Below are positions 1,485-64,000 of a DNA stretch of 64,000 bases, piece by piece. The notes beneath the pieces were generated by a model. It ran no database searches. It was not told where the DNA came from and saw only the letters and a list, made by a program, of their open reading frames with translations. Numbering within the stretch: the stretch's first letter is position 1; the number at the start of each line of letters is the position of its first letter. This DNA is from Obelidium mucronatum (Eukaryota; Chytridiomycota; Chytridiomycetes; Chytridiales; Chytriomycetaceae). The stretch covers positions 124,001 to 188,000 of the forward strand of contig JAIVFH010000042.1 in the NCBI GenBank assembly GCA_025765595.1, read 5' to 3'. The position numbers and the translations under genes are program-made.

Positions 1485-2181
1485 ATGGAGCCAAGTGCGC
1501 ACACAGACAACAACACCGCAGCAGCCAACTCACCGTCGGCTTCACAGGAGACAAGAAGCGGCCGCGCTATTAGTAATGGCAATATCGAGGATGTACAACC
1601 TGGGCTGCGGTAAGGACAGACACCGAGGGAGCATTTTGGTCTAAATTTTGCTCTCGCTAACTTAACACTGATCCTAAGAAAACGCACCAGAGATGAGTGT
1701 GAGCCTTCAGACGACAAGGCAGCACCCACCTTTGGACCGCCAACAACTATAGCCTCGGCCATTTCTGCAGGATCGGTCATCCTCGGCAAGCGCACCGAAT
1801 TCCTGTCCATAGACCGTGAAGCATTTACCCAAGACCCAAACAAGTCTGCAACAAGCTTGTTGGAGACCCTCTTGCAATCGCGTATAAGTGTGGAGATTGA
1901 CGAGCGTCTGAGAATGGCAGCTGCATTTAAGGCAGTTCTACTAAATGTGATAAGCGAAGCAGCAACGTTCGGTGACTGCCTGAGCCAAGTAGCTCAAGCA
2001 CAAGGACAGAACTGCTTTTATATTTCTCAAGCATTCAACAGGTTTGTAAATTTTTCTCTTCCAATAATTTTATTTTATTGGAAGGGATTTTATTTTATTG
2101 GAAGGGACTGAGGTGCGCCGTACCGTCGCTAGGACCTTTTTAGCTACCCAATTTAATGAATATGTATTGAATTTAATTTAA
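1485..2181 (+). CDS. Unrecognised three-exon protein, about 178 aa
   Basis: Exons 1485-1609, 1679-2041 and 2133-2181 join in frame. The first intron is GTAAGG...CCTAAG and the second GTTTGT...GCTAG. The third exon is the least certain; without it the frame runs to a stop at 2111. The N-terminus is Ser/Asn/Ala-rich and likely disordered, followed by a basic patch 'RKRTRDE' and a helical segment of about 100 residues. No known domain is apparent. The stop codon TAA (2179-2181) shares its last base with an AATAAA signal at 2181-2186, which supports the third exon. A CTTCCAAT palindrome lies in the second intron. The neighbours are element-like, so this may be element cargo. Confidence 0.5.
2058..2106. 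repeat. CCAAT/ATTGG palindrome with duplicated right arm
   Basis: CTTCCAAT at 2058-2065 pairs with ATTGGAAG at 2077-2084. The right arm, with its T-rich spacer, is repeated once more 20 bp on (ending near 2106). It sits in the putative last intron of the 1485-2181 gene. Confidence 0.7.
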
Positions 2182-3402
2182 ATAAAGCAATATAAAGAAG
2201 CAAGGGTGTTATAATCAAAGAAAATGATCAAATTGACAGGTTGGCATATGCAGGAATGCATAACAGTCGAATTAAATGCATCATTATCGTAATTTTCTGC
2301 CTCACAAGTGTGAAAAAATTCAGAGGTTGGCCGTAACAGCAGGTCTGTTGGTGCCACTGTTTGGGAATAAATCAAAGTACAAAGTCCCTTGCAACCAAGA
2401 CGAAAATGCTAGACATCCAGGATCATCTTCTTTACCAAACATAAACTATTGGAAAAGAATATCATCCAATAATAAGTAGGTATTGGAAGAGTAGAAACAA
2501 TACCTTTATGAGAAAAGCAACCCAGTTGAACCTCTCTCAGAATTGTCTCCTCCCACTCTCCACAAAGTGGTCTCCATAAAATCCATTGATAACATTGGGC
2601 AATTTATGATAAAACAGATGACACGCATATGTTTCAAAGTGTAATTTTGCTAAAAGGCAAGCCAAAAAGTGGAGCTGTTGCATTTTGACCATCTGCTCGT
2701 GCACACCTACATTTCTGTAGTAGTGAGTGCTGCAATTGAAGTCTGTAGAAGGTTTTTGTACCCTTTTCAGGTACATCATAGAGCTTTTAAAAAGTTGGAT
2801 GGAAAGAAAGATAGCGTTATGTGGAAGAGGGTTTCAGGATATCCCCCTTCAATTTCATGTTTAGCATTAGAGTGCATTTACCTTGTTAAGTTGTTCATCC
2901 AATAATTTTGCATCATTGGATGGATGTATGGTCCCTCCTAATAAAGCGGGAGAAATGCTGCTGAGGAAATCCCAATGCCGTAACACTCATTTAGCCACTC
3001 AAAACCAATAGAATAATAAAAAAACTGCATTTGAATAATGAAAGGAAGTCCATTTACCTTTGTGGGTGAGCCCCATGGGAAATCAGGCTAAAGGATTGCA
3101 TTATCCATCTCCCTTGGCTTTAACATCTCAGATTAAAATGTGATTAGTGTATTTTGATGGAGACATATGGGGGCTGGATACATATTGGGGCCTGCTTTTC
3201 TGTTTGCATTTGTAAAGTAGTTATTATTGTTCGTTCTGCACCAAATCGAACTCTGGTTCAGAAAAAACTCGCACCGGCTCGATTTTTCCACCACCACCCA
3301 AAAACCCGAACTGGCCTGTCCCGCCTTTTATACCACGTTTGAGCCAACTCCAACACAACCAATCGTCACCCAGAGCTGTCTCGAGCGAATTGCTATTGGA
3401 TC
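2182..3402. other. Intergenic, no supported gene
   Basis: This AT-rich stretch has only short frames without splice-consistent extensions or recognisable motifs. It contains one perfect 8-bp inverted repeat (2896-2922) and several ATTGGA/TCCAAT half-sites around 2450-2500. Confidence 0.6.
2896..2922. repeat. CATCCAAT...ATTGGATG palindrome
   Basis: Perfect 8-bp arms at 2896-2903 and 2915-2922 flank an 11-base loop. Arm length and loop size match the palindromes at 1012 and 1048, although the outer bases differ. Confidence 0.65.
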
Positions 3403-4359
3403 ATGGACCAAGAAGGCCTCCGTCGTCTGACCTTTGTGCCGAAATTAAAGGATTTCAACAACCAAACAAGCGTCGCTCAAGTCCTAGCATTCACAATTGA
3501 AGTGAATTCAATAGAAGACTTCAAAACCAAACTCTTTGAAGTTGTTTCTCCAAGACTCAAGCGACAAGTTGTTGTTGATAATACCCAAAATCCAGTGAAA
3601 TACACTTGGCATGAGACACAAGTCCCTACTGTTAACGATTTGAATGAATTCCTCCAGTTTTTGGTGGCCAAAGGTCATGCATAAAAACGTTTGAATGATC
3701 TGACCTTCCAAGATTTGGGCCATTGGACCGAAACACGTCGAGCAAGCATTGAAAATCCAATGGAGCTACACATATCTGTGTATTCTGTGGCAATCGTCAG
3801 CAGCACTCAATTCAAAGAGTTGAAAACAGCACTTCTTGTCCCCCAGGCTCAAAACAGGGCTGGTGCTGACGCTGAAGTTGCTATTGTTGCAATGATTGAA
3901 CGATTGCAGCAACGGTACAGACAGGTGTACACTTCGCAGGCGATCAACTGGCGTATTTGGGCCAATTATGTGCTTGCTGGACCCCCTCATGAGCAAGATA
4001 TTTGTTTTGATGCTGGCCCTCCCGGACACCTGATCCACCTGTTTGCCGCTGCTGGCGTTGATGAAGGTCAATTGCGTCGGCAGATTGTTCAATCCAACAG
4101 AGTTGCCATTGGCGAGAACGAAAGAATGCGGGAGTGGTTTCGAAACCTTCGTCAAAGGGTCGGAATTCTGATTCAAACTGCGCAGGCATTGGAGGGTGAA
4201 TTGAATGCAATTCAGGATGAGCTTGAGATTCGAGGCAACATGCTCAGGGACATGGAGACTTCAATTCAACCAGTGGTTCAGCCTCATGCTTTGCAGCTTC
4301 TTGCAAATGTCAGCCAACAAGAAGACATAGATCATGCACCACCTGCAGGAGGAATGTGA
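3403..4359 (+). pseudogene. Transposon-associated ORF with one in-frame TAA
   Basis: One reading frame runs from ATG 3403 to TGA 4359 and is broken only by TAA at 3682-3684. The two halves (93 and about 224 codons) share a frame and composition, so they look like one ancestral protein of about 317 residues. The C-terminal third has heptad-like Leu/Ile spacing and probably forms a coiled coil ('LRQRVGILIQTAQALEGEL' region). No catalytic motif is visible. The gene converges on the transposase at 4501-5456 with only 141 bp between the stops, which suggests a two-gene element. An AATAAA lies 11 bp after the TGA. The break may be real decay, readthrough or a sequencing error. Confidence 0.5.
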
Positions 4360-4500: not shown

Positions 4501-5456
4501 TCACAAATTCTTGCAATACTGTCGAAATACAATTGGGAGATCCTGCTTCAAACCCTCTGCATATCGCAATTGCATTCGCGTCTTCACCATTGCAAAGAAG
4601 AATTCAATGGGGTTGAAGAACGGACAGTATGCAGGCAAAAAAAAACAACAATTCCAAGATCACGGAGGAAGTTCACAAGATTGCTGTCACAGTGGATTTT
4701 TGCCCCATCCAGAATCCACACAGAATTTGCTCCAGGATACTGATACACTTGTTGATTATTTGTTGCAAAATCCTTGCAGCATTGGGCGAATTTGATCCTA
4801 TCAAATGTCCCTTCAGTCATGAACGTATCCAGCAAGCCAAAGAGTCCAATAAAGCATAAAAGCGACACCCGAGGCTGACGACCAAACTCCCCACGAAAAA
4901 CAAGCTTCTCACCCTTCATGCTGTAGCCATGAGTTCGCAGCATATCTCGGTTGTCAAAAGATACTTCATCAAGAAATACAAGCTGCAATAGAAGCCACGG
5001 AAATTTCGAGAGCTCCTCTGCAAACCGTGCTATGTCCGCAATACTGGCTTGCATGGCTCGTCGCTCCAAAACCTTCCAGGTCAATCCGGCTTCAGCCAAA
5101 ATGGTGCAGACCAAGGTGCGACTGATTGTTGTTTGAAAGTGCATCTCGAATTTGTACTTTGCTTCGGCCAGAAACAACGTTGGGGTTTCCTTGTAGAGAT
5201 CCACCAGCCATTGACGTTTTTCAGCTCCGAACTTCTTTCGAGAGAGCTCTGATTGCTTGCGAGAGACACTGCCGTTCGACTCAAAATTCGCAATCCATGT
5301 GCTGATGACTGATTTTGACTTTCCAAAGTACCTGGCAAGCGTCGTACGGTTGATATTGTGAAAGAAATGCATATAAAAGCAATAAAGCTTGACATCCTCA
5401 GATGCATGCTTGTGCTTTATAACATGAAGGATGCGAGTGGCATTCATTTGGGGCAA
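4501..5456 (-). pseudogene. IS630/Tc1-mariner-type DDE transposase, frameshifted
   Basis: The minus strand encodes an N-terminal helix-turn-helix ('TTLARYFGKSKSVISTW') and then a DDE domain. The first Asp lies in 'VFLDEVSFDNRD' and the second in 'VWILDGAKIH'. The frame shifts in a T9 run near 4631-4640. In the other frame the expected third motif follows ('FFNPIEFFF' with the catalytic Glu), and it closes at TGA 4503-4501. All three catalytic residues therefore survive across a one-base shift. The full product would be about 317 residues, normal for the family. Two TTTCCCGCC sites and a CCAAT box lie just upstream. Whether the shift is decay, slippage or sequencing error cannot be decided here. 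Confidence 0.85.
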
Positions 5457-5536
5457 CGGAAAAATTGAACAGAAAAATTAAGCCAGAATTTGATTTTGGC
5501 CAAAACGCACAATAAATTTTGATGGGTTTTTTTATT

Positions 5537-5560: not shown

Positions 5561-5823
5561 TTGCTTGGACAGTTTTCCCATTTTTTAAACTACTCCAGAG
5601 ACGTATCCACCCCCTTCCTCCCAATCTCTCCTCTCCAAACTGAATGATATGGAATGTCTGGGAAGAAGCATCAAAATGGCACAGCCACATGTTTGGAGGA
5701 GCCCTTTGACAATGCCTTGCATCCCAAACAGTCACATCACAGGGCTGGCATTATAAGCCTACATGCCTGAATGTTTGTGGCTTCTTTTACAGTTATGTAT
5801 ATTTGTTTCAGGCAAGATATTTG

Positions 5824-5846
5824 TCCAATATTTCAGTTTTATTGGA
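5824..5846. repeat. TCCAAT...ATTGGA palindrome at a start codon
   Basis: TCCAAT (5824-5829) and ATTGGA (5841-5846) flank an 11-base loop. The last base is the A of the likely start codon of the next gene. Confidence 0.55.
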
Positions 5847-6413
5847 TGGCCGCCACTTCTAACAAAAATTTTACGTACACAGATGAACTTCCTTGCTCTA
5901 ACACCGCCTCTGCATGTTTCACTTTTGAAATTGCCTCGCATCTTCGGCAGGCATTGTCGCTTTTGGAAGACCGGTTGCCAAGTTATTTTCAGCCAAGGCC
6001 AGGCTCTTCCTTCAAAAGCCTCCAAGCTCGATTGCTATTTGCAGAGTCTTTCCTCTACTCAGACAAGAACGCAAGCATGAGTTTGTGTTGGCTATTGGAG
6101 TTCTATGGTGCTTTTCTTGAAATCTTTATCGCATTAGGTTCGTGTAGCTCCCCCCCTTCTTCCTAAATTCTGGATACATACTGAACAAGGGTTTTTAGGT
6201 ATTGATTTTGGCAGTGTGGAGACGCATTGGTCTGTTTGGACTTCCTTGTGTTGCGACTTTCTGCCTCGCCGTCAGGCTTTGCCAGATAATCCAGCTGAGA
6301 CTGCGCCAGTTTTGGGTGTTGCGTCTGTTCAAGAGGTTTCTATTGGTCCGAATCTTCCAGCTGCTCTTGGACCTGCATCCCCTTCACAGCTGGTTGCTGT
6401 TCCCCTTGAGTGA
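5846..6413 (+). CDS. Unrecognised two-exon protein, 168 aa
   Basis: Exons 5846-6137 and 6199-6413 join in frame (donor GTTCGT, acceptor TTTTTAG) and end at TGA. The first exon encodes a helical, Leu/Phe-rich segment. The second continues with a Trp/Cys-containing stretch ('ETHWSVWTSLCCDF') and a Pro/Ala/Val-rich tail. I recognise no family. The frame stays open upstream to an ATG at 5771, so the start is not certain; I chose 5846 because the segment before it reads like leader. Its surroundings suggest element cargo or an orphan gene. Confidence 0.45.
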
Positions 6414-12384: not shown

Positions 12385-13976
12385 TCACAACTCTTGAATA
12401 AGAGTACGTTTGGAATCGACTTCTTTCTGCATTCGTTGCAACACTTGTTCACGAGCAGCATCAACAGAACCAGGATCCACTTCATGTATAGCGTCATTCA
12501 TGTCCAGCGCTTGCTTCTCAAAAGTACATCTTGCCGTTTGTTCACGAAGAATACCAAAAGTTGCGTCATTAGCACTGCCCGCAAAACAAGTATAAAACAA
12601 AATCTTTCGTGAAATACGAAGATTTAGATTCCTTTCCTCCTTGTTCTTTTTCTTGTCAGACTTTTCGTTGCTGTTATTATTGAATAACGAGTGTAAATGT
12701 GATAGCGCGGAAACAGTTTTTTTCTGTGATGACAACAACTGGCTCAAGTCGTTCAAAAGGAGGGTCAAGACTTGTTTTGCGGGGGCTATTGAAGTTTTTG
12801 TGGCTGGATCCAACAGTACATTGTTCATCTGTGGCCCGGGCAGGTCAGTGTATTACATTACACCAACATTCGCAACTCAACTCGAATAACACGATCCCAA
12901 ACACCAAAAACAGCAGACTCTACTCCATCATATCCAAAAGATGTATTTCCGCCATCTTTGAGTAAGAGAGACAGCTCACACAAAAATGAACGCGCCTCAT
13001 TGTCACAATAATCATTCTCTGCTGTTGCATCATCCGAGTGCCCCCATTCGCCGTTGAAATGACGCCATACTATCGAATAAACGCACAACAGTTCGACTAG
13101 ATTGAATGGAAGCGACGGGTGCGGTTGTGCTGTTGTCAATTTTGAGAATGGAGCCAAGTCTGCGATTACTGGAGGCTGTTTTGCTATTCCTCTGGTAGCA
13201 GTAGAGGAATTGTCTATTACTTGCTGAGTATCCAAATCTTGAATAAAAGACGATCCATCAGAATCCGGTGATGAGGTCAACCACCACGGTTCGGCGATTG
13301 CATTCTGCAATGTTTCTGATGAAAGGATATCTCCGCTTTCCAGTTGAGATTCGAATGATTCCAATTGCGAGTCAGATAAGAGAGCCATCAGTTCTTCTGT
13401 TGTCATAGAATCTGGGGGAGTTTTTTTTTTTTTGGTCATTGGAACTACGCACAGCACCAAAAGTTTGAAGCTACCTATATCCAGCTCCCCCAATTTCTCT
13501 TGCAAAGCATCCAGATCGTCTTCTACCGCATCGTCATCTATATCATCCATCTCCTCACGACTCAACTCGTGTGGTTGAGACAGCACACCCAATTCTCCTC
13601 GCTCAAACCTCCTCAATAGATGCTGCATCTTCCGCTTCATATTTTCGTCCGATTTATCTCTACCTGCACCTTCCATTCCAGTGTAGTATCGAGCTGCTGC
13701 TGACTCACCAGCCTTCTTTGCTTCCATTTCCTGCTGTATGTTGTCCTTGTAGAATGACTCACTGCATTGCGAATGTGTTTGGTGTTTGTAGCAGGCAAGT
13801 GAGCAGTATTGGAGGAAGCATTTGGGGCAAGTGTATTTGAAGGGAGCTGTGGTGCAACTAATGCGTTTTTTTTTTTGGTTAGAAGAGGGGATTCAACGGC
13901 CTTTTGTTTGTTACATTGCACAGTTGACTTGAGCTCGTATGCTGTCTTCCAGCACTGTATGTTCAATGTTGGGCAT
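12385..13976 (-). CDS. ZNHIT2: ZNHIT2-like HIT-type zinc-finger protein
   Basis: Exons 13976-13915, 13857-13475, 13411-12864 and 12828-12385 join in frame to 478 residues. The N-terminus carries a zf-HIT: 'CAIC' (split by intron 1), 'YTCPKC', 'YCSLACY' and 'HQTHSQC', the treble-clef Cys/His set. The acidic middle and helical C-terminus match the ZNHIT2 layout, and the human protein is about 400 residues. ZNHIT2 is a partner of the R2TP/RUVBL machinery in U5 snRNP assembly. The gene converges on the ADAM gene with about 195 bp between the stops. Another zf-HIT paralogue (snoRNP factor BCD1/ZNHIT6) is the main alternative, but the length and tail favour ZNHIT2. Confidence 0.8.
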
Positions 13977-14024
13977 TTATTCAGTTTTTTTTTTGATTTT
14001 TTTGTTTCACGAAGAAATCAATAC

Positions 14025-15047
14025 ATGGCTGCTTCTGTTGCCGCTGCTGCTCCGACGGTAACACTTGACATGGCGATCGAACGCTTGCAGACTTTTTATG
14101 GCATCGATGATATCAATGGCGTGCCAGTGAAAGAGGAGATGTCAAACTGGACAAATCACAACAAGTTTGGTTTCTTGACGGGTGTCCTTACCCACCACAG
14201 CGTCTACATTGAAGAAATTTACTCCCTGGTTGGTTCTGCCTCATTTCCGCACCCTGGGTCCAAAGAAGAAACTGACTATCTCCATCTTCTGTATGACCGC
14301 TGCATCAGGCCATTCAAACAACACGGTCGAAACGCAAGTAATAACTCGTCTCCTCATCCGTCCGAACCATCTTCTATTAGCGGCTCGTCGTCAGATTTAC
14401 TGAATCTGAAACACGCCGATTTTAAGGCTGCTCTTCAAGCAAGGGACAAAATATGCCTGTTCTGCTGGGGTAGAATTCAACTTCAAGCTTCCCATCTAAT
14501 TGCTGAAAAAAGTTCTATTGCTCGTATTACTGCCCAAATTCTCTCAAGTGCTGGGCTTGAATCAGTTTACCAAGTCCAGAACGGTGTTTTATTATGCAAG
14601 AATTGCCATGGCGAGTTTGATGCACTGAGACGTTATATTGATGTCAATGATGATAACCACTTGATTGCAAAAGTTGTAAATCTCACCAATGACCCGAACG
14701 ATGCCGATGTAAGAAGTGACTTAAAAGGATTCAAAGGATACCGGGATTCTCAACTCGAATTTATGTCTGATGTCAGGGAAGTGATTAATGCAAGTGGTGA
14801 AATGCCAATCTACAGTGTTCAAACGGACCTTGCTCTCTCACCAAACCGAATGGCACTTCAGTTCCATAAAACCGCTTGCTTAATTTGGAGGATGGCGGGA
14901 GGTGCTGATGTGGATGATGCGGATGATGACATGGATGAAGATGGTGGTGATGCTGATGTTGGTGTGCTTGTGGTGGAGAAATTGAGAAGCATTCAAGCAT
15001 GGAGAGAACAAGCCACTTCTGCTGGAACTTTGAACGAGAATGAATAA
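14025..15047 (+). CDS. HNH-type nuclease domain protein, 340 aa
   Basis: This is an intronless frame. The centre holds 'CLFCW', then 'ASHLI' and 'LLCKNCHGEFD', which fits an HNH_2-type fold with CxxC pairs and the His preceding the catalytic strand. The N-terminal part is helical and followed by a Ser/Asn/Pro linker. The C-terminus is a low-complexity Asp/Gly/Val stretch and a basic helix. Single-exon HNH proteins of this kind often occur as lineage-expanded families; whether this one cuts DNA is unknown. The stop TAA (15045-15047) lies inside an AATAAA signal (15043-15048). The start was taken at the first Met after the T-rich leader, because upstream sequence in frame reads as UTR. Confidence 0.7.
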   Translation: MAASVAAAAPTVTLDMAIERLQTFYGIDDINGVPVKEEMSNWTNHNKFGFLTGVLTHHSVYIEEIYSLVGSASFPHPGSKEETDYLHLLYDRCIRPFKQHGRNASNNSSPHPSEPSSISGSSSDLLNLKHADFKAALQARDKICLFCWGRIQLQASHLIAEKSSIARITAQILSSAGLESVYQVQNGVLLCKNCHGEFDALRRYIDVNDDNHLIAKVVNLTNDPNDADVRSDLKGFKGYRDSQLEFMSDVREVINASGEMPIYSVQTDLALSPNRMALQFHKTACLIWRMAGGADVDDADDDMDEDGGDADVGVLVVEKLRSIQAWREQATSAGTLNENE

Positions 15048-15687: not shown

Positions 15688-17524
15688 CTATTTCGATGTG
15701 AACGGATAAGGCGTCGGATCGGAATCCCGAGTAACAGCCATAAATTTGTAAATCTCGCCCATCGCATTCACTCCCGACGGTCCCACCAGTCGCTCATAAG
15801 CCCCCGCCAGATCTTTCCGTTTCGCAGCATCTGCCACCTTCAACAAAACTTGCAACCGTTGCACGATTCCCATGGATCTCAAGAAATCTCCTTGTGTCAT
15901 TATTTCACTGGATTTTACGCCTTCAAAAAAGAATTGAAGAAAAAAAAACATAAGAAAAAAAAAACACAACAAATGGGGAAATTTTTTTTTTTACCAGAAT
16001 CAAGAAACGCTTTGGTCAGAAAAGAAAAGTCAACATCGGCGGTAAGGTCAGAGTCACCTGGTTTCGAAAGTGAAGAAACAAACTTGTGGTTTTGTATTCC
16101 CTACAAAACCAAAAAAAAAGGGATTAACTCTTCCAGAAACCACATCAAATTACAAAGAAACACAAGAAAAAAAAACAAACTCATTTATACCCTCATCGTA
16201 TCGGCCATAATCAAATTCTTTCCATAATCTGCAATCAAGGCAAACCCACCATCGCGCTTGATTCTCTCTCCAATCTTGTGAGCATAGGTGTAAGAATCAG
16301 GAGACACTTCAATGCGGCTTCCTTCCTTGAATCGAAGGTACCGTTCATCCTTCAACAAAGTTACAGACGCTTTTGTGGAACCAGGAGATAGAATGAACCG
16401 GAAGTTGTGTGGACTGGACGAAAAAAAAAAAATTAGTTTCTTTTTTTACAAGACAGAAACTTTCAAAAAGAAACACACTACCTTGATGGTGATTCATCCA
16501 AATCAACCATCACTTCTCTCCATCCATCGGGAGCCATCTTATTTCGAGTGTTAAAAAAGTATAAAAACGAGGCAGAGTGCAAACAGAATATACCGCCTTC
16601 GGCGGTGGATTACTACTCACTTGAAATTGATAGACCGGCATTGCATCGAAAAACTCGTGTGCAACAAGTAGGATGGGAATCCCTGTTTGATACGAGTCAG
16701 GGCCACAAAATAAAAGTCTCAGACATTTTTCTTATCACCTTGTTCGACTGACTCTAATGCATCATGCCAGTGTATCTGAAATCCTTCTTTCCGTTCTGGT
16801 TCCGGCTTATTATCACTGGATGTATCAGAACCCCTCAAATCGCCACCACTTTCATCCTCATCGGATCCCGTCAACAGTTTTGATTGAACGCGACGCAAAA
16901 ACGGACTCGCTTCCACCATATTGACGGATCCAATTGCACTCGTAAAGTCTTTGAATTGCGTGACAGTTCTCAAGATATCACTCATGAGGGTTCCGCGTCC
17001 AGGTCCCAATTCGACAATATTGAATTTCGAAGGAGATCCCATTTGCTGCCATTGTGCTACAAGCCATACTCCAATAAGCTGGGGGGGTTATATTTTTTTT
17101 TTTCAGCTTCTTTTCTTTATCGTGTTTTTTTTTTTTTTTTTGCGAAAAACAGCACAAAAAATCGCACCTCGCCAAACATTTGACTGATTTCTGGAGACGT
17201 TGTAAAGTCTCCTTTGGTTCCAAATACGTCTTGTTTCATGTAGTAGCCGCCCATTGGATGTGTCAGGGCTTGACGCATGTACTGGGCTGTTGAGATAGGG
17301 CCTGTGATCTGAGGGATGCCAAGAGCAAGAAAGATTGAGATTGCGATCAATGTCGGGTTGGCAGGTTGGTTCAAAGGGAAAAGAAAGCACAAAACCCGAA
17401 TGGTCTCGGCCAGGTGTCGCGATAGGTCGGAAAGCGGCTCTTTGGTGAGCAGCTTTCCCTTGACGACCAGCGGAGACGCAGACAGCAAGCGGGGGGCGCA
17501 GTGCAGCAGGCGGTGTCCCAGCAT
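15688..17524 (-). CDS. NDUFAF7: NDUFAF7/MidA mitochondrial protein arginine methyltransferase
   Basis: Eight exons join in frame to 429 residues: 17524-17396, 17308-17168, 17078-16739, 16682-16621, 16537-16482, 16413-16191, 16100-15995 and 15920-15688. The N-terminus is Arg/Leu/Ser-rich, as for a mitochondrial presequence. Landmarks of the family follow: 'GDFTTSPEISQMFGE', the SAM-binding 'IVELGPGRGTLMSDI', 'AHEFFDAMPV', 'GWREVMVDLD' and 'DLTADVDFSFL'. In animals NDUFAF7 dimethylates Arg of NDUFS2 early in complex I assembly, so this organism probably has a conventional complex I. Human length is 441. Intron 4 contains a GCC-GAA-GGC mini-hairpin. The gene is divergent from RPT4. Confidence 0.95.
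16592..16606 (-). repeat. GNA-loop mini-hairpin in NDUFAF7 intron 4
   Basis: On the sense (minus) strand the 15-mer ACCGCCGAAGGCGGT forms six base pairs closed by C-G around a GAA triloop. Confidence 0.85.
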
Positions 17525-17774: not shown

Positions 17775-19674
<1,900 letters not shown>

Positions 19675-29863: not shown

Positions 29864-30029
29864 ATCGCCGAAGGCGGTGAATTTTATTTTTTTCCATGCC
29901 TCCAAAGGCGGCGAAGCAGACACCGCCGTAGGCGATGAACCATGCCGCTGCCGTAGGCAATGAACCATACCGCCGAAGGTGGTGAAGTTCTTAAGACTTT
30001 TCTATGCCGCCAAAGGCGGCAAAGTCTTA
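29864..30029 (+). repeat. Cluster of GNA-loop mini-hairpins
   Basis: At least six palindromes occur in 166 bp: 29864-29878 (GAA loop), 29898-29912 (AAA), 29922-29936 (GTA), 29949-29959 (GTA), 29969-29983 (GAA) and 30006-30020 (AAA). The last is extended by TAAGACTTT (29992-30000) pairing with AAAGTCTTA (30021-30029). Stems vary between copies but usually stay paired, sometimes through G-T. Confidence 0.85.
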
Positions 30030-43863: not shown

Positions 43864-45925
43864 ATGACAGTACGACGACCCGCCAAGAAGGCGCGGCTGC
43901 TCTCTGGGTTCTGCACGCTGCGGTCGCATCCGTACGGCGTGCAGCCGCTGGGAAACGCGCTGTTCGACAGCGGCGGCGGCGCGGCGCAGCGGCCGGCGGC
44001 GGACCGCGGCGCCGGGCTCGGACGGCTCGCAGCGCTCGACGACGCGGCGCTGCTCGGGTTGTTTCTCGCGGCGCCGCACGTGCTCGACGACGGCAGCGTG
44101 CTGCGGCTGCAGCGCTGCTCGCGCGCGCTGTACGTGCTGTGCGGCGTCGACGACGTGTGGCGCGTGCGGACGCTGGCGCGCTTCGGCGGCGCCTTTGGCG
44201 CGTTCGCGGACTCGTGGAAGAACACGTACAAGGCGCGGCTGCACGCAGAGCGGCGGCCGCAGCCCGGCGAATGCGCGCCCGACGTGCCGCTGAAAGTCGG
44301 CTACTACTCGGACTACCTGTTTAGCGCCTGGCGCTGCTCGTCCATTCCGCTCGACGTCCTGTGTCGCGCGGATGCCCCAGAGAACATTGATCGGCGGAGC
44401 GGTCTGTCGGTGCAAGAGTTTGTCGACGAGTAAGTAAGAGACGATGACCCCAACGTGACTCATCTCCTTTTCACTCAAACAGATACGATGCGCCTGGAAA
44501 ACCAGTCATTCTCACTGATGTTGTCACAAAGTGGCCTGCTTTTGGTAAATGGAACATGGATTACCTTGAAAAGACGGTTGGCGATGTCGAGTTTCGTGCA
44601 GAGTCGGTCGATTTACAATTCAAAACATATGCCGCCTATGCAAGAACCTGCAACGAAAACGGGGGCTCATTCGAAGAAGCGCCTCTATACCTCTTTGACA
44701 AGTATTTTGGCCGACGAACAAAACTCGATCAAGATTTCAGCGTCCCACCATACTTTTCCCAAGACTTGTTTCACTTGCTCGGACACAATGAGCGTCCAGA
44801 CTATCGATGGATAATCATTGGTCCTGCTCGATCCGGCAGCACGTTTCATTTAGACCCCAATTCTACTTCGGCTTGGAATGCCGTTGTCACTGGTGCTAAA
44901 AAATGGCTTTTATTTCCTCCCAATTGTGTCCCACCTGGTGTCTTTCCTTCGGCGGATGGTTCAGAAGTGACGACTCCCATTTCTTTGGCTGAATGGTTTC
45001 TCAATCATTATGATGAAATCAAGTCTTGGCCAGTGAAACCTATTGAGTGTATTTGTCGTGCTGGGGAAGTTTTGTATGTTCCTCGAGGTGTGTTGCTACT
45101 TGCTCCTTCACTGCTGAACTTTACTGCCGAAGGCAGTGTCCTCACTGTCGAAGGCAGTGTGCGTTTGTTTTTCTTTTCTTTGTTTCTTTCTTTCTTTCTT
45201 TTTTTTCTTCCTTCACTGCCGCAGGCAGTGTCTTTACTGCCGAAGGCAGTTTTTCTTTTTCTTGTTCACTGCCGTAGGCAGTGTCTTTGCCGCCGGTCTT
45301 CACTGCCGAAGGCAGTTTCCGGCAGTATGCTTTTGTTTTTCTTTCTTTCTTTCTTCCTTTTTTTCCTTCCTTCACTGCCGCAGGCAGTTTTTTTTTTTCT
45401 CTTTTCGTATCCACCAAAGAACCTGTCATAGGTGCTTTTGTTATACTCTATATATTCCTAACAAGGCACTTTCTTAAGGGTGGTGGCACTGTGTAATGAA
45501 CTTGGAAGAGTCTATTGCAATTACTCAAAACTTTGTCAACGACTGCAACTTGACAGAGGTAACAATCTATTTTACAAACACTTGATAAGAAAAAAAAGGT
45601 TCCTAAAAACCCTTTCTTTTGTGTGGCTGGACAGGTTTTGCGGTTCATTCGGGAAAAACCGGACCAAGTCAGCGGATATGGATCGGGTGAAAAAGCCTGT
45701 TCCTTGGCGAATACCCTTTACTCAAGATTTTCTGCGGCTTTACAAGAAACGCATCCTCATGTTGTTCAACAGGAAATTGCAACCAGTCGCAGTGCTGCCA
45801 AGATGTTAAAGGCAGGGAGCACCAAGGCCCCTGCAACCAACAGCATTTCAAGCCTATTCGCCCCCAGTACCGAGGATGAATCTTCATCTTCTGCCTCATC
45901 TTCTTCTTTTCGTTTCTCGTTTTGA
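43864..45925 (+). CDS. F-box-like plus JmjC (JMJD6-related) oxygenase
   Basis: Exons 43864-44429, 44483-45087, 45479-45558 and 45635-45925 join in frame to 513 residues. The GC-rich exon 1 encodes an F-box-like stretch ('LAALDDAALLGLFLAAPHVL ... WRVRTLARF'). The JmjC domain follows: iron ligands His and Asp in 'TFHLDPNSTSAWN', the distal His in 'GGWWHCVMNL' (made by splicing exons 2 and 3), and 'IAITQNFV', all characteristic of the JMJD6 group. These are Fe(II)/2-oxoglutarate oxygenases acting on protein Lys or Arg. The tail is Ser-rich. The 391-bp third-from-last boundary intron (45088-45478) is filled with mini-hairpins. An SCF link is inferred. Confidence 0.85.
45123..45388 (+). repeat. 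Seven GNA-loop mini-hairpins in the JmjC intron
   Basis: Seven 15-bp palindromes of the form ACTGYCGNAGGCAGT occur at 45123 (GAA), 45144 (GAA, one stem mismatch), 45215 (GCA), 45236 (GAA), 45268 (GTA), 45302 (GAA) and 45374 (GCA). T/C-rich spacers separate them, and a larger unit (TTCTTTC tract, CTTCCTTC, hairpin) is repeated. Confidence 0.95.
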
Positions 45926-56912: not shown

Positions 56913-59900
56913 CTATCTTCTACTGACGGCAGCTGCAACACTTTGAGAGCATTTTTGGTTTGTTTGGCCACTTAAACAGTTTTGGTTAACAAGGCTAAAA
57001 AAAAAAAGAAAGACAAAATTAATGAACTGTAACAATAGGAAAAAAAACGCCGAAAAAAGAACGCTTCTTCATACATTGCTGACTGGGTTGTGTGATGAAT
57101 ATTGCTGGTTCCATTCACTCCAAACAATTGCCAAAGGCCGTCACTTCGAAAAACTACACTGAATGAGCTCAGAGATTTTCCCATGATTGTCGTCGCGTTT
57201 GACCACACGTTATTGCTTTGTCTCGTCATATACTTGAGTTCATTTGACGTAGTGGTCAAGAAAACGTATAGAACGTTATTTGGCGACAGAATCGGCTGAA
57301 ACTGCTTAACGTAGTAAGAAAGCGTCTGAAACTTGGTGCCATAGTACAAGGCGTTGTTTTTTGAATAAATGAAGGGAACTACAGAGCCGTTGCCATCCTT
57401 AATCAGAGTGACACTGCTCAGATCACCCCAGCTATTGATAACCGTCCAATTCGAGGTCCAACCATAAGTCGAGTTTTGAACAGTTTTGAATAATCCATAC
57501 AAGGAACAGACCCATACTTCCAAAAGGTTGTCACCATTTCTTGCAGCCGACACTTGAAAAACATGGTTGCCGCCAGTCATGGAATTGGTCATTCCACTCC
57601 AGGCAGTAAAGTTATTCCCATTGATGACGGTTTGCGCGAGCGAATCAACTTTTCTGGTGTCGATTGTTCCTCCAATACCGAAAAGTTCCAAGCGGTTTTG
57701 ATAGTTAAGTGTTGCAACTATGGAGCGCTTCCAACCAGCGGCCGATGCACCTAAACCGCCCACTGGAGATTCAACAAATGTCAGATTGTTGGGACTGCCT
57801 TGTGCATGGTGATACACGGTGCCTCCATACAGTCCCAACCACCCCACACTCTCATTGCGTACAGAAAAGACATCAATGCGTCCATTATCGCTATATGCCA
57901 CAATCAACTCAGAAATATTGGTTTTCCCAAATGTATATGTTCCATTTGTAGTCCAATTGAAGCTATTCGCGGAAAGTTGACTCAAAGTATTGATGTTGTT
58001 TGCAGTGTAGGCAAACACTTGCAATCTACCGTCCGCGTTTTTGGCAGCAGCCACGTTGCTGAAAAGTCCAGTAAGTGAAGACCACACAAAGTTATCCTTT
58101 TGGCCTTGCCAGCTTGGCGGAACTATTATCATGTGGAGCAGAGTTACGTTAGCATGATTGAATGAATACGACAAAAATAAAATAAATAATAAAAAGAAAA
58201 GAAAAAAAAGAGAACGGAATAAAAAAATTCAATAAATGAATAAAACTAAGAGGACAACAGAATTGCACTGTACCTGTGCCAGTCAAGTTATTGTTCTGCA
58301 AATTCAAGTAGCTCAGCGATCCCAACACAGACCAAGAGCTTGGAATGGATCCGTTGAAAGTATTGTTGCTCAGATCCCTGAAAGCACGATATGCCGTCAA
58401 CAAGGTCAATTCATGAATAAAAAATGGAAGCTTACAAATATGTCAAGCGATTCAACAACGAAAGATCCGCAGGCAACGCTCCAGTGAGATTTTTGGCGGG
58501 CAGTATGCTTTGGAGGGGAATCAGCGAATCATGTCCACAAAATAACACAGCAAGTTCTTACATGGCGACACAGTTTCCATCTGCATTCAGTTTAATCAAC
58601 CCACTGCTGTTTCCAGCGGCGCAGTTTGTAGCCAGTGTACCCAGTCTGGACGAAAGAGCTGGGAATGAAGCCAGCAAAAGGCGGCAGTCGGTGTTGGCAT
58701 CTACCAAACTGAAATCAAAAATAAAATAATTATAAAAAAAATTAAAAAGAAGATGGGTTATTTCGGATCTTAAAAGAGTGAGAAACAAGCGCGATCAATC
58801 ATACATTTTGGACTGACTAGTGTAATTGATTGTTCCAGTTCCATTCAAACCGAACAACTGCCAAAGATCATCGTTACGGAAAACAACACTGAAGCTGGTG
58901 ACAGGACTTCCAATAACAACTGCAGCCGACCACACGTAATTGTCACGTGTCATATACTGGACAACTTTGGAAGTAGTGGTCATGAACAAGTAAAGCCTGG
59001 TGTAGGCAGTATTGTAGATGGGTTGCATAGTAAGAATATTCGTAGCCAGCTGCTCACACGCCGTGCCGTAGTGCAGCGTATTCGAAGATGAAATGGTAAA
59101 GGGAATGACAGTTCCATTGGCATCCTTGATGACCTTGACTTGCCATAAATCCACCCGGGCATTGGCAGTTGTCCAGCCACTGTACAGCGTAATACTAGTA
59201 GACACCGAATATCTCAACCCAGTTGTTCCAACACTCCATACTTCAATCGGACCATTACCACTGATAGCAGCCGAGACTTGGCGGATGGTTCCTGTGAGCT
59301 CGGTGTTGCTGACTGGGACAAAATCACTCCACACATTCCCGTTCGGAACCATATTACGCAACCAAAAAATATTTTGATTACCAACAACTGCATAGACCAA
59401 AGTATTTCCAGACGGGCCGAGGATTATGCATAGTGTAGACGATTGTACCAAAGCGCTCTTGAACCCACCAAGTGGAATATCGGCAGTGAAAGAGAGACCA
59501 TTGCTCGTGGCAGACTGAGAATAGTGATATACTGTACCATAGTTTGGTGCTGTTCGGTTGTACAGAGTGAAGACTTCAATTCTACCAGTAGACGACTGGC
59601 CAAGTGCAATTTGGGTGAGGTTCTGTTGGAGGCCGAAGGAGTAGGAACCATTTGTGGTCCATGAATAGTTGTTTGCAGTGAGTTGATACATTGTATCAAC
59701 CCCGCTGGATGTGTAGGAAAAGACTTGGAGACGACCATCAGCATTGGTGGCAGCAACAACGTTGCTGTAAGATCCTGTGAGAGAGCCCCAGGCAAAGCTA
59801 CTTGGAGCTGTCCAGTTCAAGGGGGCTACGATTATAACAAAGGATAGTCAAGTTAGTGGGAATGGCGTATCGATTGCTTTGTGAAGCCAACCTGAACCAG

Positions 59901-62900
59901 ACAAATTATTCCCCTTCAAATTCAAGTAGCTGAATGTTTTGAAATTTGACCAAGATGGTGGAATAGGGCCAGTATATGTGTTGTTACTCAAGTCCCTTGA
60001 TAATAATTGTCAATAAAAAAAAATCATATTCGTTTCCACTCGAGTAGACTCACAAGTACGTCAAACGAGAAAATACACTCAAGTCAGGAAGAGTTCCGTT
60101 AAGTTTTTTTGCCGGCAACGATCTACAAATTTACATGTCAATTAATAAAGTTTACACACTCTCTTTGTCATGGGGAACACACAAAGCTACACAATTTCCG
60201 CTTGTATCAAACTGCACTGCGCCATTTCCTGCTGAACAATTTGATGCTATGCTACCAAATGCAGAAACTAGCGATGGGAATATTTGATGAAGTTTCGCGC
60301 AGTCTGGTAGCCCTGGAGAAACAGTCGAAGCTGATGTAGATGTGGCGGTCATCTGAACCACAGCCGACGGTGGCTGGCTCGTAATAGGTGACAACGGAGG
60401 GGTGTTTGATCTTGACGAACTTTGAAGTGGCAAATTTGTACCAACACTTCTGGGTGATGTCATCCCTGTTTGTGTCGCTGCAGGTGAAACTGGGCTGACC
60501 ACATTTGTTGGCCTACTGCTGCTATTTCCATTTAAAACACCAGAAGGACTTCCCAATGGAACGGTTGTTGGCCTTGCTCCTGAAGGCGAAACACCGGAAG
60601 GACTTCCCAATGGAACGGTTGTTGGCCTTGCTCCTGAAGGCGAAACACCAGAAGAACTTCCCAATGAAACTGTTGTTGGTCGGGATCCTGATGGCGAAAC
60701 ACCGGAAGGACTTCCCAATGGAACGGTTGTTGGCCTTGCTCCTGAAGGCGAAACACCGGACGGACTTTCCAAAGGAATGGTTGTTTGCCTGGCTCCTGAC
60801 GTAATTCCGGCCACCGACGATGCAGGTCTTATATTAGATACCCAGGTCGTAGTTACCCCTTGTTGGCCACACTTTTGGTTGGGTGGGCCACTCAAGCAGT
60901 TTTGGTCAACAAGTCTGAAAATCCAAAAAAAAAAAAAAAAAAAATAAAATAAAATAAAAGGAAGACAAAGTTAATAAGCTGTAAAAATCGGAAACAAGAA
61001 CGCTTCTTCATACATTGCCGACTGGGTTGTGTGATGAATATTGCTGGTTCCATTCACTCCAAACAATTGCCAAAGGCCATCACTTCGAAAAACTACACTG
61101 AATGAGCTCAGAGATTTTCCCATGATTGTCGTCGCGTTTGACCACACGTTATTGCTTTGTCTCGTCATATACTTGAGTTCATTTGACGTAGTGGTCAAGA
61201 AAACGTATAGAACGTTATTTGGCGACAGAATCGGCTGAAACTGCTTAACGTAGTAAGAAAGCGTCTGAAACTTGGTGCCATAGTACAAGGCGTTGTTTTT
61301 TGAATAAATGAAGGGAACTACAGAGCCGTTGCCATCCTTAATCAGAGTGACACTGCTCAGATCACCCCAGCTATTGATAACCGTCCAATTCGAGGTCCAA
61401 CCATAAGTCGAGTTTTGAACAGTTTTGAATAATCCATACAAGGAACAGACCCATACTTCCAAAAGGTTGTCACCATTTCTTGCAGCCGACACTTGAAAAA
61501 CATGGTTCCCACCAGTCATGGAATTGGTCATTCCACTCCAGGCAGTAAAGTTATTCCCATTGATGACGGTTTGCGCAAGCGAATCAACTTTTCTGGTGTC
61601 GATTGTTCCTCCAATACCGAAAAGTTCCAAGCGGTTTTGATAGTTAAGTGTTGCAACTATGGCGCGCTTCCAACCAGCGGCCGATGCACCTAAACCGCCC
61701 ACTGGAGATTCAACAAATGTCAGATTGTTGGGGCTGCCTTGTGCATGGTGATACACGGTGCCTCCATACAGTCCCAACCACCCCACACTCTCATTGCGTA
61801 CAGAAAAGACATCAATGCGTCCATTATCGCTATATGCCACAATCAACTCAGAGATGTTGGTTTTCCCAAATGTATATGTTCCATTTGTAGTCCAATTGAA
61901 GCTATTCGCGGAAAGTTGACTCAGAGTATTGATATTGTTTGCAGTGTAGGCAAACACTTGCAATCTACCGTCCGCGTTTTTGGCAGCAGCCACGTTGCTG
62001 AAGAGTCCAGTAAGTGAAGACCACGCAAAGTTATCCTTTTGGCCTTGCCAGCTTGGCGGAACTATTATCATGTGGGGCAGAGTTACGTCAGCATGATTGA
62101 ATGAATCCGACAAAAATAAAATAAATAATTAAAAAAAAAAGAAAAAAAAGAGCATAACAAAAAAATAAATAAGAAATGGAAAGAAAAAATAAAAAACATT
62201 AAATAAATGAATAAAAACAAGAGGACAACAGAATTGCACTGTACCTGCGCCAGTCAAGTTATTGTTTTGCAAATTCAAGTAGCTTAGCGATCCCAACACA
62301 GACCAAGAGCTTGGAATGGATCCGTTGAAAGTATTGTTGCTCAGATCCCTGAAAGCACAATATACCGTCAACAAGGTCAATTCATGAATTAAAAAATGGA
62401 AGCTTACAAATATGTCAAGCGATTCAACAACGAAAGATCCGCGGGCAACGCTCCAGTGAGATTTTTGGCGGGCAGTATGCTTTGGCGGGGAATCAGCGAA
62501 TCATATCCATCACCAAAAAAACAAAAAAGCAAGTTCTTACATGGCGATACAGTTTCCATCTGCATTCAGTTTAATCAACCCACTGCTGTTTCCAGCTGCG
62601 CAGTTTGTAGCCAGTGTACCCAGTCTGGACGAAAGAGCTGGGAATGAAGCCAGCAAAAGGCGGCAGTCGGTGTTGGCATCCACCAAACTGAAATAAAAAT
62701 GGAAATAAAATATTAATAATAAAAATAATAAACGAAGATGGGTTATTTCGGATCTTAAAAGAGAGAGTAAACAAGCGCGATCAATCTTACATTTTGGACT
62801 GACTAGTGTAATTAATTGTTCCAGTTCCATCCAAATCAAACAACTGCCAAAGATCATCGTTACGGAAAACAACACTGAAGCTGGTGACAGGACTTCCAAT

Positions 62901-64000
62901 AACAACTGCAGCCGACCACACGTAATTGTCACGTGTCATATACTGGACAACTTTGGAAGTAGTGGTCATGAACAAGTAAAGCCTGGTGTAGGCAGTATTG
63001 TAGATGGGTTGCATAGTAAGAATATTCGTGGCCAGCTGCTCACACGCCGTGCCGTAGTGCAGCGTATTCGAAGATGAAATGGTAAATGGAATGACAGTTC
63101 CATTGGCATCCTTGATGACCTTGACTTGCCATAAATCCACGCGGGCATTGGCAGTTGTCCAGCCGCTGTACAGCGTAATACTAGTAGACACCGAATATCT
63201 CAAACCAGTTGTTCCAACACTCCATACTTCAATCGGACCATTACCACTTATTGCAGCCGAGACTTGGCGGATGGTTCCTGTGAGCTCGGTGTTGCTGACT
63301 GGGACAAAATCACTCCACACATTCCCGTTTGGAACCATATTACGCAACCAAAAAATATTTTGATTACCAACAACTGCATAGACCAAAGTATTTCCAGACG
63401 GGCCGGGGATTATGCATAGTGTAGACGATTGTACCAAAGCGCTCTTGAACCCACCAAGTGGAATATCGGCAGTGAAAGAGAGACCATTGCTCGTGGCAGA
63501 CTGAGAATAGTGATATACTGTACCATAGTTTGGTGCTGTTCTGTTGTACAGAGTGAAGACTTCAATTCTACCAGTAGACGACTGGCCAAGTGCGATTTGA
63601 GTGAGGTTCTGTTGGAGGCCGAAGGAGTAGGAACCATTTGTAGTCCATGAATAGTTGTTTGCAGTGAGTTGATACATTGTATCAACTCCGCTGGATGTGT
63701 AGGAAAAGACTTGGAGACGACCATCAGCATTGGTGGCAGCAACAACGTTGCTGTAAGATCCTGTGAGAGAGCCCCAGACAAAGCTACTTGGAGCTGTCCA
63801 GTTCAGTGGAGCTTTTATTTCATGGAAAATTGTTTAGTTCATTTTTTGTTTTTTGTTTTTTTGGGACACGGAATTGTCAATTTTGTGTGAGGCATGGGGG
63901 AAAAAAAGCCAAACCTGAACCAGTCAGATTATTTCCTTTTAGATTCAAGTAACTAAATGTTTTGAAGCTTGTCCACGATGGTGGAATGGATCCAGTGTAC
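56913..64000 (-). CDS. Giant LRR plus PLL-like beta-propeller surface protein (5' end off window)
   Basis: One minus-strand gene, open at 64000 and ending at TAG 56915-56913. Exons: 64000-63915, 63811-62791, 62687-62541, 62479-62408, 62348-62245, 62061-61014, 60914-60183, 60122-60054, 59995-59892, 59825-58805, 58708-58562, 58507-58436, 58377-58274, 58122-57075 and 56994-56913. All junctions keep one frame. The order repeats: a Cys-containing LRR cap ('DANTDCRLLL', 'NCAAGNSSGL'), two plant-type LRRs ('DLSNNTFNGSIPSSW', 'YLNLQNNNLTG'), then a roughly 340-residue propeller with 'SNVVAATNADGRLQVF' blades, as in Photorhabdus-type lectins (PLL). Two propeller types alternate, with a Ser/Pro/Gly linker in between. 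Many N-x-S/T sites suggest secretion. Sugar binding is inferred. Confidence 0.8.
56950..64000. repeat. Tandem segmental duplication inside the LRR-propeller gene
   Basis: The segment from about 60880 to 64000 repeats 56950-60010 with near identity, including introns. Homologous exon starts are offset by 3939 bp (62061/58122), 3972 bp (62479/58507) and 3986 bp (63811/59825). The differences come from intron indels and the 0.7-kb linker present only in the left-hand joint (60914-60183). Confidence 0.95.
60546..60815 (-). repeat. 54-bp coding minisatellite in the linker
   Basis: Five units start at 60546, 60600, 60654, 60708 and 60762. Each encodes 18 residues of the type 'GARPTTVPLGSPSGVSPS' on the minus strand, a Ser/Thr/Pro-rich stalk that is probably O-glycosylated. 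Confidence 0.9.

Follow-up and report, generated by a model that had tools for sequence, protein, structure and literature searches.

Why should one intron of a chytrid gene hold seven copies of a short palindrome, all with the same kind of apex? The locus lies within the window, i.e., the whole stretch of 64,000 nucleotides that was analyzed, and the copies are all contained in a single intron, as follows.

45088..45478, + strand: intron of a cupin-8/JmjC gene, host to all seven copies; 391 nt, GT...AAG; placed by its splice junctions, the Pfam match of the upstream exon and the spliced relative P0001
45123..45137, + strand: hairpin 1, ACTGCC-GAA-GGCAGT
45144..45158, + strand: hairpin 2, ACTGTC-GAA-GGCAGT, with one T.G pair
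45215..45229, + strand: hairpin 3, loop GCA
45236..45250, + strand: hairpin 4, loop GAA
45268..45282, + strand: hairpin 5, loop GTA
45302..45316, + strand: hairpin 6, loop GAA
45374..45388, + strand: hairpin 7, loop GCA

An initial sequence-only reading had reported seven copies of ACTG(C/T)CGNAGGCAGT in one intron, and these were recovered as seven exact 15-mers on the + strand (45123-45388). Its description of a constant C-GNA-G apex with a varying middle base was likewise borne out, the middle bases being A, A, C, A, T, A and C. With at most one mismatch allowed, the 15-mer has seven matches in the window, compared with 0.02 expected from 100 shuffles; the seven 15-mers are not of chance origin.

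The assignment of the gene and its intron is based on several observations. The upstream exon matches the cupin-8/JmjC family in Pfam, and the exon ends flanking the 391-nt intron read ..YVPRG and WWHC.., while protein P0001 of Chytriomyces sp. MP71 is continuous over the junction (VPRGWWHC). The best match of the JmjC-gene protein is from Chytriomyces sp. MP71 (77% identity, 92% of the query covered). For a pyruvate kinase exon elsewhere in the window, the named matches include the chytrids Irineochytrium and Kappamyces, so that the sequence matches mark the organism as chytrid-like.

Occurrence of the hairpins in the assembly

Pattern searches of the assembly (48.3 Mb, 694 contigs) were compared with searches using the reversed patterns; they were preferred to the covariance model suggested at the outset, which was considered too short to yield informative E-values across the genome. 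The pattern ACTGYCGNAGGCAGT was found at 46 + 57 = 103 sites (control, 0 + 2), and the main form ACCGCC-GNA-GGCGGT, searched as ACCGCCGNAGGCGGT, in 1,170 + 969 = 2,139 exact copies (control, 0). A further pattern, TTCGCCGNAGGCGAA, occurred at 48 sites (control, 0), and the bare core, GCCGNAGGC, at 5,514 sites versus 1,090 for its control. A frequency no higher than chance, one of two outcomes that the sequence-only reading had named as fatal to its proposal, is excluded; as to the other, no known transposon came to light in the searches made. The ACTG stems amount to ∼5% of the frequency of the ACCG stems, and the hairpins of the JmjC intron are a minority branch of the larger ACCGCC-GNA-GGCGGT family. 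The earlier description was therefore right about the seven copies but incomplete, in that it mistook a minority stem for the whole family and overlooked the strand rule described below.

Twenty arbitrary 10-kb stretches (200 kb) contained two GCCGNAGGC cores, one of which (locus L041) forms a good hairpin; the hairpin copies are therefore clustered. A rough extrapolation from the window and this 200-kb sample suggests several hundred hairpin loci in the genome. Five array loci (10,430 bases) gave no match in Rfam at the gathering score. A search of the assembly for COX1 found nothing, and mitochondrial DNA seems to be absent from it.

Three other sites of the window carry related hairpins, two of them in introns with Pfam-matching exons on both sides:

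16538..16620, - strand: intron of a Methyltransf_28 gene, 83 nt, with a single sense hairpin, ACCGCC-GAA-GGCGGT, at 16592-16606
18438..18599, + strand: intron of a proteasomal ATPase gene, 162 nt, with a single imperfect sense hairpin, ACCACC-GCA-GGCGGT, at 18479-18493
29864..29983, + strand: four related hairpins, most of them imperfect, at 29864, 29922, 29947 and 29969, lying upstream of an ORF on the + strand and not within a placed intron

In array loci such as L174, L171 and L002, the spacing from hairpin to hairpin is often 19-22 or 42-44 bases. These distances approximate two or four helical turns and may represent either phasing or the mere duplication of units. One of the longest arrays, L012, is accompanied by an ORF (2-637, + strand) that matches HNH_2, and a window ORF at 13803-15047 (+ strand) looks similar.

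The apex loop

Throughout the assembly, GNA occupies 2,139 of the 2,343 three-base loops of ACCGCC/GGCGGT stems, any N being accepted within a closing C-G pair. The ACTGCC stems number 109 sites with any loop, up to 99 of which are GNA (the 103 sites above minus at least four with ACTGTC). A perfect 6-bp stem carrying a 3-nt loop was counted 184 times with GNA and 56 times with another loop across array regions plus window (125 kb); the 109 such stems in 264 kb of window and sample predict ∼52, compared with the 56 non-GNA stems found. The array loci (47 kb) contained 149 perfect stems with 3-nt loops, and 10, 25 and 9 with loops of 4, 5 and 6 nt, versus ∼17, 14 and 12 expected when scaled from the 264-kb sample, such that the 5-nt class is mildly raised. 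In a set of 262 hairpins that form five or six of the six pairs and were preselected for the C-GNA-G apex, the middle base was A in 184, T in 64, C in 10 and G in 4.

GNA with any N, a closing C-G pair and at least two G-C pairs is, in the available text of PMC4686876, the stability rule of DNA mini-hairpins of the d(GCGAAGC) type, and the chytrid hairpins share all three properties. The known examples have been studied as oligonucleotides or as parts of aptamers, unlike the nuclear repeat family seen here. To our knowledge, no nuclear repeat family built on such mini-hairpins has been described.

Extent and covariation of the stem

For 148 distinct sites, picked by the 9-nt core only, Watson-Crick pairing at positions 4, 5 and 6 reaches 93%, 81% and 74%, compared with 65%, 57% and 57% expected for independent arms, while pairing at positions 7 to 10 is at or below expectation. 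The stem is exactly 6 bp.

Covariation of the stem, which the sequence-only reading had proposed as a check, was found in the outer three pairs: 111 distinct 21-mers (at most eight per locus, from 19 loci) contain 59 two-sided changed cells, versus 15.5 ± 3.2 in 500 shuffles. The outer three pairs include four, four and two standard pair types, respectively, and 93.7% of the cells are paired in register, compared with at most 52% in slid versions. The inner three pairs are constant because the sites were chosen by those pairs. In the assembly, the arm combination ACC..GGT occurs 2,139 times, ACT..AGT up to 99 times, ACT..GGT 49 times and ACC..AGT 31 times; by our arithmetic, independent arms would yield only ∼8 of the double changes. 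A double change of precisely the ACC..GGT/ACT..AGT type is all that separates two units of the Nic96 intron whose spacers are identical. The hairpins are less variable than the spacers in six of seven sets of array units, the 34-bp set of Avl9 being reversed; units of an array share ancestry, such that changes in stems and spacers are not all independent events. The one-sided T.G intermediates outnumber C.A (49 versus 31 sites, p 0.057), and the difference is larger after sites were collapsed by hand into loci (48 versus 25, p 0.0095).

Intron placement and the sense strand

Introns were placed by GT/AG junctions, the coding signal of the flanks and Pfam matches, and the search that seeded the loci was blind to strand. 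Pfam matches were obtained on both flanks for glycine decarboxylase P, Avl9 and the window's two genes for a proteasomal ATPase and a methyltransferase, and on one flank for Nic96, an Arf-like GTPase, NDUFB8, a PPR protein, an ankyrin protein and the JmjC gene. Several other introns were placed by coding signal and junctions alone, and a number of their exons have no Pfam match. The list comprises 23 introns, one of which (L171b) has no qualifying hairpin (at least 5 of 6 pairs), thus leaving 22 that were scored. In five of the latter (GDC-P, both of C28b, C44 and C50) the acceptor was not placed, and a fixed stretch after the donor, of up to 1,200 nt (90 nt for C44), was scored. The donor position of C22 is off by one or more bases (its intron starts with GGTG).

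In all 22 introns the GNA strand is wholly or mainly the mRNA-sense strand, with 189 sense and 7 antisense hairpins in the scored segments. With introns taken as units, a two-sided sign test gives 4.8e-7 by our arithmetic; a value computed per hairpin would count array units as independent events and is set aside. Genic orientation had been put forward for examination at the outset, and the sense-strand rule is the principal new finding. A second Avl9 array, not included in the 22, is also in the sense orientation.

The first stem starts 9-46 nt past the 5′ splice site in 19 of the 22 introns, and the last stem ends 46-166 nt ahead of the 3′ splice site in the 17 introns with both ends placed. 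The single-hairpin introns among these 17 measure 83-162 nt (n=4), and the introns with multiple hairpins 153-1,805 nt (n=13).

Several loci depart from this pattern. Locus L173 has eight sense and two antisense hairpins; at L011, which adjoins a - strand ankyrin gene, an array on the + strand and a hairpin on the - strand are in opposite orientations. The hairpins of L172 lie directly past the end of the KTI12 gene, in the same sense as KTI12 but with no placed intron. In all, four clusters are outside introns or lack placement; 22 introns versus these four give the impression that the family is confined to introns.

A probable folded strand of sense polarity

A palindrome normally conceals its strand. 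Here the apex reveals it, by reading GNA on one strand and TNC on the other, and in the placed introns the GNA strand follows transcription. Sense-strand GNA (not TNC), together with the covarying arms, points to the importance of a single strand that is folded and has sense polarity, and there are two candidates for it, the pre-mRNA and the non-template DNA. The original proposal of selection on a single-stranded DNA structure survives in part, while the hairpin-mediated spread, replication pause or landing site that it named as examples are conjectural: since the GNA loop is kept with any N, the stem covaries and copy numbers are far above the controls, the folded single strand is the likely unit. 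The covariation, for its part, could stem from hairpin-templated repair instead of selection.

The explanation that we favor, at somewhat less than an even chance, is that the 15-nt mini-hairpins form a nuclear family residing largely in introns, a repeat that is either selfish or tolerated and whose sense strand is folded, probably as non-template DNA. The non-template (sense) strand would be exposed by transcription, and the GNA mini-hairpin would close on it. The folded structure may then be recognized or copied, thereby seeding new hairpins in the same orientation, and arrays would subsequently grow by local tandem duplication. With the 5′ splice site and the final 46-166 nt left clear, introns would tolerate such growth. 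The single hairpins in four introns are as expected of array seeds. Counted on the other side are the lack of any observed movement, empty site or linked transposase, the opposite clusters of L011, the antisense hairpins of L173, the extra-intronic position of L172 and the reversed Avl9 set. We infer, rather than observe, the preference for DNA over RNA, the dependence on transcription, the movement between genes and a selfish as opposed to a host-useful nature. DNA is preferred because acceptance of any N in GNA is the published DNA mini-hairpin rule (PMC4686876, in the text available); this choice rests on the literature, since DNA and RNA energy parameter sets score most of the 64 loops alike and did not distinguish between them.

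A bolder version, which we consider doubtful, would see in the family a mobile element of the nucleus, ∼15-20 nt long, whose multiplication proceeds through a sense-strand hairpin of transcribed genes and thereby produces sense arrays in several hundred introns. It would be a eukaryotic counterpart of hairpin-recognized prokaryotic elements, in which transcription picks the strand. If the strand rule holds genome-wide, the family would offer a natural test of whether repeats arise and introns grow through single-stranded structure of the non-template DNA or through structure in the pre-mRNA, and a type of DNA mini-hairpin so far familiar chiefly to oligonucleotide chemists would be linked to genome evolution.

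The other candidate strand, the pre-mRNA, leads to an account that we regard as rather unlikely, in which the hairpin works as RNA: C-GNA-G would be read by a protein or snRNP, or folded arrays would shorten long introns and hold their splice sites near each other, and selection would keep the sense fold. Location in introns, sense orientation and the free zones at both splice sites all agree with it. The excess of T.G over C.A also fits folding of the sense strand, but fits transcription-linked C-to-T mutation equally well. Moreover, plain compaction needs neither GNA nor a particular strand, because an antisense hairpin folds too, and the any-N loop is that of the DNA rule cited above.

Mutation alone appears more improbable still. 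According to this scenario, template switching perfects the palindromes, tandem duplication builds the arrays, and antisense copies, with their A-rich spacers in the transcript, are selected out. The paired double change between the Nic96 units with a common spacer is in its favor, as is the high T content of the spacers, read along the sense strand, in a majority of 16 introns. It leaves unexplained, however, why hundreds of loci that differ in their spacers all have the GNA apex. Arrays outside genes should, moreover, be numerous and randomly oriented under this scenario, which the four unclear clusters, set against the 22 introns, appear not to bear out.

A very improbable alternative is that introners or MITEs, carrying whole introns, brought the arrays along as passengers, although introners are intronic and are known in fungi (PMC9860276, in the portion available). 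The first 12 nt of the array introns differ by eye, and their 3′ ends resemble one another little more than shuffled sequences do: over the final 60 nt, 16 of these introns have a mean identity of 0.338 in an ungapped comparison, versus 0.288 when shuffled. A double-stranded palindromic site for a dimeric regulator would account for a perfect palindrome with a 3-bp center, but it provides no reason why the sense strand should read GNA and not TNC or why the arms should change jointly, and is scarcely credible.

Comparison with known systems

The DNA mini-hairpin reading finds its closest working analogue in the target hairpins of diversity-generating retroelements (DGR), which, in the part of PMC3240598 available, form a DNA hairpin or cruciform that acts as DNA and whose stem sequence is free, while the sense strand keeps a constant loop (GRNA). 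The chytrid family likewise combines a free stem with a sense-fixed loop. The DGR targets differ in their four-base loop, their single hairpin each, their phage or bacterial hosts and their associated reverse transcriptase.

Short hairpin repeats in introns and spacers are likewise present as palindromes in green-algal organelles (Volvox, Haematococcus), as described in the available text of PMC2670323 and PMC7235400. The Volvox palindromes occur in both orientations (PMC2670323, same text), are mostly organellar, have TAAA or TTTA loops and measure ∼50 nt. By contrast, the chytrid hairpins are on nuclear contigs, are predominantly in one sense orientation, bear GNA loops and measure 15 nt.

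Introners, introner-like elements and stwintrons are repeats confined to introns, some with symmetrical ends (PMC8469720, PMC9860276 and PMC7789003, in the portions available). In introners the whole intron is the repeat; the array introns, on the other hand, appear unlike one another, and only their internal hairpins are common.

The promoters of the phage N4 virion RNA polymerase are small DNA hairpins with three-base loops that are used single-stranded. These are phage promoters, whereas the chytrid family has no link to a polymerase. No description of the chytrid hairpins was found in the literature covered, which was partial and mostly excluded subscription papers, and papers containing the motif letters were unrelated, as judged from title and abstract opening.

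No bacterial or viral source appeared among 239 listed loci matched by two neighboring hairpins, 185 of which contained either no or one perfect 6-bp C-GNA-G hairpin. A search of the translated Avl9 array against proteins gave as its sole match an Avl9-domain protein of Sistotremastrum, probably via the Avl9 exon in the query.

Three loci from outside the chytrid were noted as well. A Ruminococcus sp. MAG (L224, JAJBTZ010000062.1) has 13 perfect 6-bp C-GNA-G stems in 8 kb (∼262-520 and 5688-5945), with many stem sequences, versus nine other three-base-loop stems; this is perhaps an unrelated family with the same apex. The sequence IMGVR_UViG_3300042453_004886 (L372, ∼1503-4222, - strand) contains 11 such stems, all on one strand and some extending to 17 bp, versus seven others, and these hairpins may resemble single-strand hairpin promoters. 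A prokaryote contig (L263, ∼1096-1555) carries five copies of CCCGCC-GAA-GGCGGG on one strand.

Other features of the window

Several further features of the window were noted. An ORF at 4584-5477 (- strand) resembles a DDE transposase by eye and is considered a candidate. Two near-identical sets of ORFs on the - strand, at 56972-59847 and 60971-63833, indicate a gene pair that has seemingly been duplicated. Finally, a tandem repeat of 54 bp in 4.9 copies lies within an ORF at 60535-60799.
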